This document shows positions 7,998 through 11,408 of a stretch of 11,923 nt of DNA, in pieces (position 1 is the first letter of the stretch; each line of letters starts with the position of its first letter). The stretch covers positions 1-11,923 of the forward strand of contig PATE01000113.1 in the NCBI GenBank assembly GCA_002712305.1. The letters run 5' to 3'. Below the pieces are notes generated by a model. That model was not told the origin of the DNA. It did no database searches and worked only from the letters and a program-made list of their open reading frames with translations. The DNA comes from Gemmatimonadota bacterium (GTDB lineage Bacteria > Latescibacterota > UBA2968 > UBA8231). Both the position numbers and the translations under genes were made by a program.

Positions 7998-8966
7998 TCA
8001 GGGGCGAGGGGGGGTGGGATCGGTGGGCAGCGAAGGGGCATCCACCGCAGCCGCAGGAAGGTCTGAAGGTACGTCACGCACATAAACCTGTGTGCTGGCC
8101 ATATCGGCGTGGCCAAGCAGGTGTTGTACATCCTGCAGCAAGGCACCTCCCTCGAGCAGGTGGACGGCGAAGGTATGCCGAAGGGTCTGTGGGCTTACGG
8201 TGCGTTCGATGTGAGCCGACGCAGCGGCGGCACGGATGATCTTCCAGATACCCATCCTTGAAAGGGCCCTGCCCTGCGCGTTGAGAAACAGAGTGTCTGT
8301 CGTGGTCTCCTGAACAAAATGGTCGCGGCCAGATCGCTCGTAGACAGACAATGCCAGCAATGCAGCCTGTCCGACAGGTATGATCCTGTGTCGAGCCCCC
8401 TCACCGGAAACCTGCAGAAGACGCTGCTCGTGTTGGATATCTGCGCATCGAAGCGAGATCAGCTCCGAGACTCTGACCCCCGTGGCGTACAGGGTCTCCA
8501 GCATTGCGCGATCTCTCAGCGATCGAGGATCATCGCCCTGAACAGCACTGACCAGGCGAATCGCCTCATCGATACTGAGCGGATCAGGATCTCGTCTGCC
8601 CACTCGGGGGGGCGACAGTCCTTCCGTCGGGTCGGTGGTGAGGAGTCTCTCCTGAAGAAGGTGATCGTGGAATCGGCGCAAGGAGGACAGGTTGCGGGCG
8701 ATGGTGGCCGAACTCAGAGCGGACTGGTGGAGAGACTCCACCAGGGCCGCCGCATGTTTTGCAGACAGGTCTGTGAGACCTCGGGCACCCGCCTGGGTGG
8801 CGGCGGCCAGATAACGCATAAGATCACGGCGGTAGGCATCGAGAGTACTCTTGCTGACCTGCTCAGACTTCAGGTCGGCGAGAAATCTCTCCAGCGCGCC
8901 GTCCAGTTCTGGCGCAAGTCCGGAGGCCTCGCCTTCGGCGCTAACGCTGCTCCGAGATTTGGACAC
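7998..8966 (-). CDS. xerD: XerC/XerD-family tyrosine recombinase with atypical active site
   Basis: A 322-residue two-domain tyrosine recombinase; the family resolves chromosome dimers at dif, among other roles. The SAM-like N-terminal core-binding domain spans about residues 20-112 and the catalytic domain about 128-298. Against E. coli XerD from memory, the catalytic domain aligns without gaps. Arg165 (ATGVRVSEL), Arg263 (TLRHTF), His286 (LLGHADM) and the nucleophile Tyr295 (STQVY) are kept. The catalytic Lys position is Glu189 (VSGEGARHR) and the His of H-x-x-R is Gln260 (SPQTLR). The tail after Tyr is Pro/Ala/Asp-rich (SDLPAAAVDAPSLPTDP), unlike the usual helix. The start appears to be GTG at 8966, overlapping ogt by 26 nt, with no clear Shine-Dalgarno sequence and no alternative that keeps the N-terminal domain. 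XerC versus XerD cannot be decided; the symbol is provisional. Confidence 0.85.
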   Translation of the reverse strand: MSKSRSSVSAEGEASGLAPELDGALERFLADLKSEQVSKSTLDAYRRDLMRYLAAATQAGARGLTDLSAKHAAALVESLHQSALSSATIARNLSSLRRFHDHLLQERLLTTDPTEGLSPPRVGRRDPDPLSIDEAIRLVSAVQGDDPRSLRDRAMLETLYATGVRVSELISLRCADIQHEQRLLQVSGEGARHRIIPVGQAALLALSVYERSGRDHFVQETTTDTLFLNAQGRALSRMGIWKIIRAAAASAHIERTVSPQTLRHTFAVHLLEGGALLQDVQHLLGHADMASTQVYVRDVPSDLPAAAVDAPSLPTDPTPPRP

Positions 8967-9525
8967 GGTTGCCGTCGAAGGCGATTCCCTCGTGTTGGAG
9001 CAGAGCTTTCTTCCAGTGAGGGCCCGCAGAATAGCCGGTCAGCGCATCCGTAGAGGCGACGATGCGATGACAGGGGTAGATGATGGGGAGCGGGTTCTGG
9101 GCTACGATGTTTCCCACGCTCCGAGCACGACTGACCGGAAGGCCAAGGCGCAGGGCGAGTTCCCCATAGGTCTCGTAGGAGCCAGAGGGGACCTCATTGA
9201 GCGCTTCCCAGACCGTCCGTTGGAAATCGGTACCAATCTTTGGCGGCAAAGGGATTTCGAAGCTCGTCGGTTTGGCCATGAAATACCGCATGACTTTGGC
9301 GATCAATTCCTGGCCCGCCGGGTGAGGTGGCAGGAAACGACGAAGCGTCGTGCGCCGATCCTCCGGGTCAAAGGGGCCGATCACGACATTGATCACGGTC
9401 TCCTCATGCCAGCAGATGCGGACGGTACCAAACTTCGTGATCACGTCCGTCGACGCTGTCAACGTATCGTCGACTTCATCGTAGAAAGCGGGCCGGTAGG
9501 GTTGACGAATCCCGTCATCGCTCAT
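8941..9525 (-). CDS. ogt: Methylated-DNA-[protein]-cysteine S-methyltransferase
   Basis: A 194-residue suicide DNA-repair protein that transfers alkyl groups from O6-alkylguanine or O4-alkylthymine to its own cysteine. The acceptor is Cys152 in NPLPIIYPCHRIV. The helix-turn-helix region contains SRARSVGN (about residues 132-139), which includes the base-flipping arginine finger. LTGYSAG follows, as in the family. The N-terminal ribonuclease-H-like domain (about residues 20-90) is present but divergent. There is no AraC-type domain, so this is Ogt-like rather than Ada. The ATG at 9525 overlaps the uvrC stop as ATGA, with AAGGAG at 9538-9533 spaced 7 nt. It is therefore likely to be co-expressed with uvrC, pairing direct alkyl reversal with excision repair. 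Confidence 0.94.
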   Translation of the reverse strand: MSDDGIRQPYRPAFYDEVDDTLTASTDVITKFGTVRICWHEETVINVVIGPFDPEDRRTTLRRFLPPHPAGQELIAKVMRYFMAKPTSFEIPLPPKIGTDFQRTVWEALNEVPSGSYETYGELALRLGLPVSRARSVGNIVAQNPLPIIYPCHRIVASTDALTGYSAGPHWKKALLQHEGIAFDGNRVQISEQR

Positions 9526-11408
9526 GCGGCGACTCCTTCAGTCACACCATCGTCGTCGCTCCGTGTCTCTTCACCTGGTGGCTGGAGGTGCTCTTTCAAC
9601 TGATTCGCCAGTTTCAGACTGACACCCTTTACGGCGGCAATCTGTTCTGGATCTGCCTCGCGTAGCTGCCGTACAGAACCGAATTCACGCAGCAGAGCCT
9701 GGCGGCGTTTGGGGCCGATACCCGGGATGTCATCGAGACCGGATGCGATCGTGCGTTTGGTGCGGAGTTTCCGGTGGTGGGTGACAGCAAATCGATGCGC
9801 CTCATCTCGCAAAACCTGCAGGAGCCGGAGACTGGCCGATGCTCTGGGGAGCAAGATGGGTTCGGATTCCCCCGGAACGAAGATCTCCTCCAATCGCTTG
9901 GCCAGACCCACAACAGGAAGGTCGTAGATCTCGAGTTGCCGCAATGCATCGATGGCGTTCGACAATTGTCCCTTGCCCCCATCGATCATCAGCAGGTCGG
10001 GCAGGGCCTCTCCACGACGACGAAGACCACTGATGCGGCGGGGGACCACTTCGTGAATACTGGCGAAATCGTCGGGCCCCTGCTCACTCTCGCTGCGGAT
10101 ACGGAAGTGGCGATACTCACTGCGCTTCGGTTTGCCATCGATCATCACCACCAGGGAGCCCACCGTATCCGTCCCCTGGAAGTTGGAGATGTCGATGCCC
10201 TCGATTCGCCGTGGCAACGTGGGACTGCTGATGTCGCGCTGCAGCGAATGAACGGATTGGGGCACGCGATCGCGCAGGGCCTCCCTCTTCAGCCTGCGTT
10301 CCTCCAACATGTGCGCCGCATTGCTCACCGCCAATTCCTGCGCTTGCGCCTTGAGACCACGTTGGAAAGCGGCGACCGTCACCTTCACGTCACTCTTGCT
10401 GGTCAACCACGCGGCCAGCTCCTCGCCATCGGACAAGGCCACATTGACATGGATCTGACGAGGGATGAAGTCGGACTGGAGATAGAACAGGCGGATAAAG
10501 GCTGAGATGATCTCGGCGTCGCTGGCCTCGATCACGCCACCGAGGAAGTGATGCTTGTCCCCCACAACTCGGCCTTCTCGAACTTCGAGAACGGTGCAGC
10601 AGGCCTCGTCGTCATGGCGAGCCAACCCGATGATGTCACGATCAATCTGCTCTTCCAGAACCATTTTCTGGCGATGCTGGTATACCTCGAGGGCCTCGAT
10701 CTGGTCGCGACATCGGGCAGCCACCTCGAACTTCAGTTCCTCTGACGCGGTCGCCATTCTTTCGCGCAACTCGCGAATGACACTCGTCTTGTCACCCCGA
10801 AGGAAACGAACGGCCTGATTCACACTCTTGCGATAGTCGATCTGACTGACGATGCCCTCACAGGGACCCTCGCATCGGTGAATCTGGTATTCCATGCACA
10901 ACTTCACCTTCGGATCTGGCAGATCGTAGCGGCAACTGCGTACCGGAAAGATCCGGTGCATGACGTCTAGCATCATGCGCATCTGTCGTGCACTGCTGTA
11001 GGGACCCAGATACCTCGACCCATCCTTCAGTACATCACGAGTCCAGAAGATCCGCGGAAAGGGTTCGTCCGTGATGCGAATGAAGGGATACTTCTTGTCG
11101 TCTTTGAGATTGATATTGTAACGAGGCTTGTGGGCCTTGATCTGCGTCGCCTCAAGGATGAGGGCTTCCTGCTCCGTCTGCGTCAGGATGACGTCCAGGT
11201 CGGCCACGCGGCGCACCATCAACTCGATCCGTGCACCGCGCTCTGAAACGCCGGACTCCTGGAAATAGGAGCGTACGCGAGATCGCAGACTCTTGGCTTT
11301 ACCGACGTACAGGATCTTGCCGGTCTCGTCCTTCATCAGATAGACACCGGGCGCACTCGGCAGCGTGTCGAGCTTGTGCCGCACCGTCTCTGAGAGGGTC
11401 AGCTTCAA
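9522..11408 (-). CDS. uvrC: Excinuclease ABC subunit C
   Basis: A 628-residue UvrC, the nuclease that makes both incisions around a lesion in nucleotide excision repair after UvrAB loading. The GIY-YIG domain (about residues 18-98) has GVYLMKD, LYVGKAKSLRSRVRSYF and Glu86 in ALILEATQI. Cys159, Cys171, Cys179 and Cys183 match the four cysteines reported to hold a 4Fe-4S cluster in E. coli UvrC. A UVR domain covers about residues 205-245. The RNase-H-like domain has Asp406 (GIDISN), Asp476 (MIDGGKGQL) and His538 (DEAHRF). Tandem helix-hairpin-helix motifs (about residues 556-608, IPGIGPKRRQALL) end the protein. The start is taken as TTG at 11408, just downstream of an in-frame TAG (11438-11436); GTG at 11384 is an alternative. 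The Shine-Dalgarno sequence is weak for both. Confidence 0.97.
   Translation of the reverse strand: MKLTLSETVRHKLDTLPSAPGVYLMKDETGKILYVGKAKSLRSRVRSYFQESGVSERGARIELMVRRVADLDVILTQTEQEALILEATQIKAHKPRYNINLKDDKKYPFIRITDEPFPRIFWTRDVLKDGSRYLGPYSSARQMRMMLDVMHRIFPVRSCRYDLPDPKVKLCMEYQIHRCEGPCEGIVSQIDYRKSVNQAVRFLRGDKTSVIRELRERMATASEELKFEVAARCRDQIEALEVYQHRQKMVLEEQIDRDIIGLARHDDEACCTVLEVREGRVVGDKHHFLGGVIEASDAEIISAFIRLFYLQSDFIPRQIHVNVALSDGEELAAWLTSKSDVKVTVAAFQRGLKAQAQELAVSNAAHMLEERRLKREALRDRVPQSVHSLQRDISSPTLPRRIEGIDISNFQGTDTVGSLVVMIDGKPKRSEYRHFRIRSESEQGPDDFASIHEVVPRRISGLRRRGEALPDLLMIDGGKGQLSNAIDALRQLEIYDLPVVGLAKRLEEIFVPGESEPILLPRASASLRLLQVLRDEAHRFAVTHHRKLRTKRTIASGLDDIPGIGPKRRQALLREFGSVRQLREADPEQIAAVKGVSLKLANQLKEHLQPPGEETRSDDDGVTEGVAA

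Follow-up and report, generated by a model that had tools for sequence, protein, structure and literature searches.

Catalytic residue loss in XerD and a candidate single-recombinase replacement in a family of Latescibacterota

We propose that, in the family of Latescibacterota to which the window genome belongs, a third tyrosine recombinase, here called Rec3, has probably displaced the XerC/XerD pair in chromosome dimer resolution, and that XerD has been kept as a non-cutting DNA-binding protein. The window (the whole stretch of DNA analysed, 11,923 nucleotides, contig C113 of a 4.77-Mb assembly) carries an xerD gene whose product reads R-E-Q-R-H-Y at the catalytic positions and so does not match the R-K-H-R-H/W-Y expected of an active tyrosine recombinase. 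We designate the window genome G000, its family f1 and its genus g1, to which G001 also belongs; families f2-f9 of the same phylum are the outgroups for the XerD comparison. The features on which the argument rests are collected in Table 1.

Table 1. Positions of the features discussed (window coordinates unless a contig or locus is given)
Feature	Position	Strand	Remark
xerD orthologue, 322 aa, GTG start	7998..8966	-	intact frame; decayed active site
Codon of Arg165 (= XerD Arg148), kept	8472..8474	-	alignment with E. coli XerD
Codon GAG, Glu189 replacing catalytic Lys (XerD Lys172)	8400..8402	-	in the turn between model strands 182-186 and 192-196
Codon CAG, Gln260 replacing first catalytic His (XerD His244)	8187..8189	-	opens model helix 258-271
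Codon of Arg263 (= XerD Arg247), kept	8178..8180	-	alignment with E. coli XerD
Codon of His286 (= XerD His270), kept	8109..8111	-	alignment with E. coli XerD
Codon of Tyr295 (= XerD Tyr279 nucleophile), kept	8082..8084	-	alignment with E. coli XerD
Pro-rich C-terminal tail replacing the LHxxxHPRA tail	7998..8069	-	predicted disordered
ogt-like gene (O6-methylguanine methyltransferase domain), syntenic neighbour	8941..9525	-	
uvrC, syntenic marker of xerD in f1, f3 and f4	9522..11408	-	named by eye from translation
Rec3, tyrosine recombinase	G000:C17:21663-22541		all six catalytic residues
Inverted rec3-mutL segment, genus g7	L235 5406-8920 vs L260 8853-12362		also L263, L275

Results

Identity and active site of the window XerD

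The window gene is a XerD orthologue by its best family model, its vertical descent and its conserved neighbourhood (uvrC-ogt-xerD order). TIGR02225 is its top profile match at 283.7 bits, under the curated cut-off of 329.6, and a PDB sequence search returned 1a0p (XerD) as the top match at E 3.3e-48. Chain 14 of PDB entry 9i5v, labelled ribosome-associated inhibitor RaiA, also resembles XerD along a Xer-like stretch (E 1.4e-29), which points to a fusion or a label error. At the other end of the window, positions 81-1169 of the minus strand hold a gene for a PorV/UPF0164-like outer-membrane protein.

When window XerD was aligned by MAFFT to E. coli XerD, residues R165, E189, Q260, R263, H286 and Y295 paired with R148, K172, H244, R247, H270 and Y279. 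The alignment and the codons bear out the earlier note on this gene, which had described a gap-free alignment with exact catalytic spacing that keeps both arginines, the second histidine and the tyrosine, and has Glu in place of the lysine and Gln in place of the first histidine. Its statement that the beta-hairpin (QVSGEGARHRII) contains no lysine also holds, and a substitute lysine in the hairpin was therefore rejected. The two changes out of six that it reported are real and understate the divergence, as window XerD deviates at 12 of the 59 columns conserved at ≥90% in a comparison with 41 XerD-type proteins, drawn from other genomes and nearly all from other phyla, and every one of these 41 proteins has Lys and His at the two replaced positions. 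Window XerD furthermore lacks the LHxxxHPRA C-terminal tail that is present in G001, and this replacement is either genuine divergence or a local assembly error.

The structure model of window XerD has a pLDDT of 86.8, is mostly low-confidence from residue 288 on, and is numbered one lower than the protein. Its fold matches Xer recombinases, with MrpR/YopR also a structural match (Z 14.5-15.1). In Cre, K201A is inactive and yet binds DNA and synapses, whereas substitutions of His289 are tolerated and activity is kept (PMC4381057), which makes the loss of the lysine the weightiest of the changes. By analogy with K201A, window XerD should fold and probably binds DNA, and should not cleave it efficiently.

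XerD across the family and the phylum

The catalytic lysine is missing from every XerD found in f1, whereas all XerDs examined in f2-f9 read RKHRHY. The variant is thus lineage-specific, as had been suggested among other options, and a sequencing error or a mutation of a single strain is ruled out by the loss of the lysine across the family. The residue at this position is Arg in G001, g3, g5, most of g7 and G011, Ala in G004, Gly in G017 and Cys in G016, and the position is deleted in G008 and G014. The two replacements differ in their conservation: Glu is peculiar to the window genome, and Gln for the first His is common to g1 and g5 and is also found in G008 and G014, having arisen separately in this part of g4. 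The XerD of G024 (L035) has lost Arg I (now Gly) besides the lysine, and the XerC of the same genome is intact. XerD has been inherited vertically, judging from a tree that recovers f1 (100/99), g1 with g5 (100/99), g4 and g7, and uvrC adjoins xerD in f1, f3 and f4.

We consider it unlikely that XerD is simply being lost, made redundant by Rec3 and decaying without a remaining function. Of ten window genes compared between G000 and G001, xerD shows the lowest conservation (61% identity vs 73-88% for the others), the loss of its C-terminal tail in the window genome may reflect ongoing decay, and no XerD was found in G002 and G006, both of which are incomplete assemblies; yet the frame is intact, the gene is retained in most f1 genomes, and XerD and XerC are both under purifying selection where this is measurable. 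For the G005-G009 pair of the sister genus g5, dN/dS is 0.130 at a dS of 0.28 for XerD and 0.124 at a dS of 0.24 for XerC, although this XerC is without the catalytic Tyr, and these values near 0.12 differ little between the N-terminal and the C-terminal domain of either protein. The same ratio is unobtainable for the window's own gene, since synonymous sites are saturated between G000 and G001. The intact frame and the selection seen in g5 agree with the earlier judgement that the gene is not an obvious pseudogene.

Partner XerC, FtsK and SMC

Orthologues of XerC, identified by shared neighbour genes, read RKHRHY in the outgroups and in the majority of g4 and g7 genomes; in two, Arg replaces Lys. 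The XerCs of G000 (contig C144) and G001 have lost Lys, both His and Tyr, those of G005, G009 and G015 (g5) and of G002 (g2) are decayed likewise, and that of G012 has similar motifs broken by an assembly gap. The window genome is thus without a partner XerC with an intact catalytic set, and, as its XerC is more decayed than its XerD, XerC cannot rescue XerD there; the proposal of a recombinase relying on a second active Xer protein fails for this partner. The genome also encodes SMC and an FtsK with an intact gamma domain.

A third recombinase, Rec3

The earlier note had suggested looking in the same genome for a second Xer gene with a full catalytic set. A PF00589 search of the genome brought up Rec3 as another intact tyrosine recombinase, which lies outside the window and could not have been seen from it. 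Rec3 is found in 22 of 25 f1 genomes at at least 57% identity and is absent from all 39 other genomes of the phylum. It retains the complete set of six catalytic residues wherever its sequence is covered, and its identity between G000 and G001 is 87%, compared with 61-63% for XerD and 62% for XerC. As few branches carry both the losses and the gain of Rec3, the association between them does not represent many independent events. Rec3 scores 74.7 bits against the XerS model (cut-off 267), XerH is absent among its phmmer matches at E 0.001, and by these comparisons it appears to be no close relative of either.

Rec3 could instead be an old mobile-element integrase that came to lie beside dif and does not resolve dimers, these being left to residual XerCD or tolerated. 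We find this improbable: its closest relatives found outside f1 are indeed plasmid and phage tyrosine recombinases, at ~30% identity, and it adjoins old dif-like sites, but the gene holds a fixed position between mutL and leuS in the loci compared, its catalytic set is intact, it is located exactly at the terminus, it is the best conserved among the three recombinases, and a search of viral contigs (IMG/VR) returned no close relative. Resolution of chromosome dimers would be the more probable activity of Rec3.

The palindrome and the dif-like sites at the terminus

The palindrome ACTAACKATAA-CAGGCA-TTATCGWTAGT lies ~200 bp upstream of rec3 and has a dif-like architecture, with 11-bp arms, a 6-bp spacer and an ATAA-6-TTAT core. 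Each of 16 f1 genomes has exactly one copy, which adjoins Rec3 wherever this was checked, and a search of three outgroup genomes returned none, as did a control pattern. With the terminus placed by distance from dnaA, the two f1 genomes assembled as a single contig have the palindrome 49.3% and 49.8% of the chromosome away from dnaA, about half a chromosome, and therefore at the replication terminus. The palindrome is not seen in G000 because the contig ends ~165 bp upstream of Rec3, before the site; in the relatives of G000, Rec3 is a recombinase gene adjoining a unique dif-like site at the terminus. The asymmetric spacer (CAGGCA or its complement) stands in opposite orientations relative to rec3 among L228 (G007), L217 (G018), L219 (G001) and L229 (G005).

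A strict pattern finds six dif-like sites in each of G018, G020, G021 and G023 and four or five in G022, G024 and G007, with zero for the control, and a looser pattern finds mostly about one site per genome in families with a canonical XerD. In G018 and G024 every strict site falls in a region of ~45 kb around the palindrome, the rest of the genome having none. All of the 38 sites on contigs that also carry the palindrome point inward, and all 48 sites examined are intergenic by crude gene calls in DNA that is ~90% coding. In g1 and g5 the search returned no strict site, and one or two degenerate ones adjoin Rec3. As to a dif site in the window genome, the remaining point of the earlier note, no canonical one was found: this fragmented assembly has no strict site and only two degenerate ones beside Rec3. 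With the sites of g1 and g5 so degenerate, it is doubtful that window XerD still has a DNA target. Across the genomes, the occurrence of dif-like sites follows the condition of XerC/XerD, and that of the palindrome follows Rec3. The canonical-XerD genome G025 has two perfect dif-like sites in direct orientation at 8677 and 17921 of L226 (contig C199), 9.2 kb apart beside asnS, possibly a dif-flanked module.

Between close species of g7 (88-97% identity), a 3.5-kb segment holding rec3, the palindrome and mutL is inverted, with both breakpoints at flanking inverted dif-like sites, and these sites have therefore recombined recently there, by XerC/XerD or by Rec3. XerC is intact in g7 and XerD mostly has Arg for Lys; the recombination is most simply ascribed to intact XerC with or without this XerD, Rec3 being less likely, and the change of Lys to Arg need not be fatal. 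Because of this inversion we claim full loss of cutting only for g1, g5 and possibly g2. The 6-bp spacers mostly differ among the dif-like sites of one genome, and this, together with the inversion seen, led us to drop the notion that such an array would be self-destructive under active XerCD.

These observations also bear on the palindrome as an operator of the rec3 promoter, with Rec3 acting on the dif-like sites. The position of the palindrome upstream of rec3 and the recombination of the sites flanking rec3-mutL in g7 would suit an operator, which we nevertheless doubt, as the paired 11-bp arms, the 6-bp spacer and the ATAA-6-TTAT cores resemble dif, and the palindrome is still present in g1 and g5, whose Rec3 is intact and whose dif-like sites have decayed. 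The least probable alternative is that XerD continues to recombine DNA through an altered active site, at a low rate or under FtsK control. In its favour, Arg, Arg, His and Tyr are kept, g7 shows inversion despite Arg for Lys in its XerD, FtsK-gamma is intact, and Cre retains activity with His289 substituted (PMC4381057). Against it, Glu carries a charge opposite to that of the general acid it replaces, the K201A change inactivates Cre, relatives have Ala, Gly or a deletion at the lysine (G024 being also without Arg I), the partner XerC has no Tyr, and g1 and g5 have only degenerate dif-like sites.

Discussion

We favour displacement of XerCD by Rec3 in dimer resolution, with a structural or regulatory function as the preferred option for window XerD. 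In the order of events that we envisage, Rec3 would first have settled at the old dif locus, and XerD would then have lost its lysine in the f1 ancestor. The single dif would next have become several dif-like sites, after which XerC would have lost catalytic residues in g1, g2 and g5; finally, the XerD of g1 and g5 would also have lost the first His as the dif-like sites decayed. Rec3 would now resolve dimers at the palindrome by the terminus as a single recombinase, and the XerD of the window genus would be retained for a non-cutting role at the terminus. The leading guess for this role is SMC unloading, known from Bacillus subtilis XerD, or service as a landing pad for FtsK; that it is SMC unloading in particular is a narrower claim that we regard as rather unlikely. 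More tentatively than the displacement itself, and with a little less than even confidence, we read the whole lineage as caught mid-replacement, in which Rec3 and the palindrome would have taken the old dif locus, XerC and XerD would be selected, non-cutting terminus proteins, and an inward dif-like array would have formed (g7) and then been lost (g1, g5).

XerCD is among the most conserved chromosome-maintenance systems. Family f1 offers both intermediate and apparently defunct XerCD pairs, has sister families that are canonical, and carries an intact candidate replacement alongside. This makes two processes testable, namely the replacement of a two-enzyme system by a one-enzyme system and a catalysis-free role for XerD. 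It also means that annotation of xerC and xerD does not guarantee a working XerCD-dif system. A literature search on Xer systems in Latescibacterota found no paper.

Comparison with known systems

The E. coli XerC/XerD-dif system is alike in its orthologous XerD and XerC, its FtsK with a gamma domain and its dif-like sites at the terminus. It is unlike in that here XerD is without Lys and His and XerC without four of the six residues including Tyr, a third recombinase is present, and other f1 genera have several inward dif-like sites. Streptococci have an XerD-like protein (NF002685/PRK02436), related to XerD and described as not acting at difSL, alongside XerS; the match of window XerD to it is very weak, at 25.1 bits with a cut-off of 178.

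The single-recombinase systems XerS/difSL, XerH/difH and XerL/dif, the last from Legionella (PMC5357621, PMC9765430), likewise have one tyrosine recombinase and a site at the terminus. Single recombinases adjoin their dif sites (PMC5357621), and the XerS and XerH genes do so as Rec3 does its palindrome. These systems differ in that f1 keeps xerC and xerD with decayed active sites and in that Rec3 appears to be no close relative of XerS or XerH.

The XerD of B. subtilis unloads SMC at the terminus, on the account of Karaboja 2021 given in passages of PMC12322038, PMC8242196 and PMC13220808, and it resembles our case in a terminus role beyond dimer resolution and in the presence of SMC in the window genome; it is a canonical recombinase, however, whereas window XerD is without Lys and His. 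Finally, MrpR/YopR of phage SPbeta is a tyrosine-recombinase fold turned into a DNA-binding repressor without recombinase activity (PMC10516654), although it is a phage repressor rather than a chromosomal XerD and has lost other residues.
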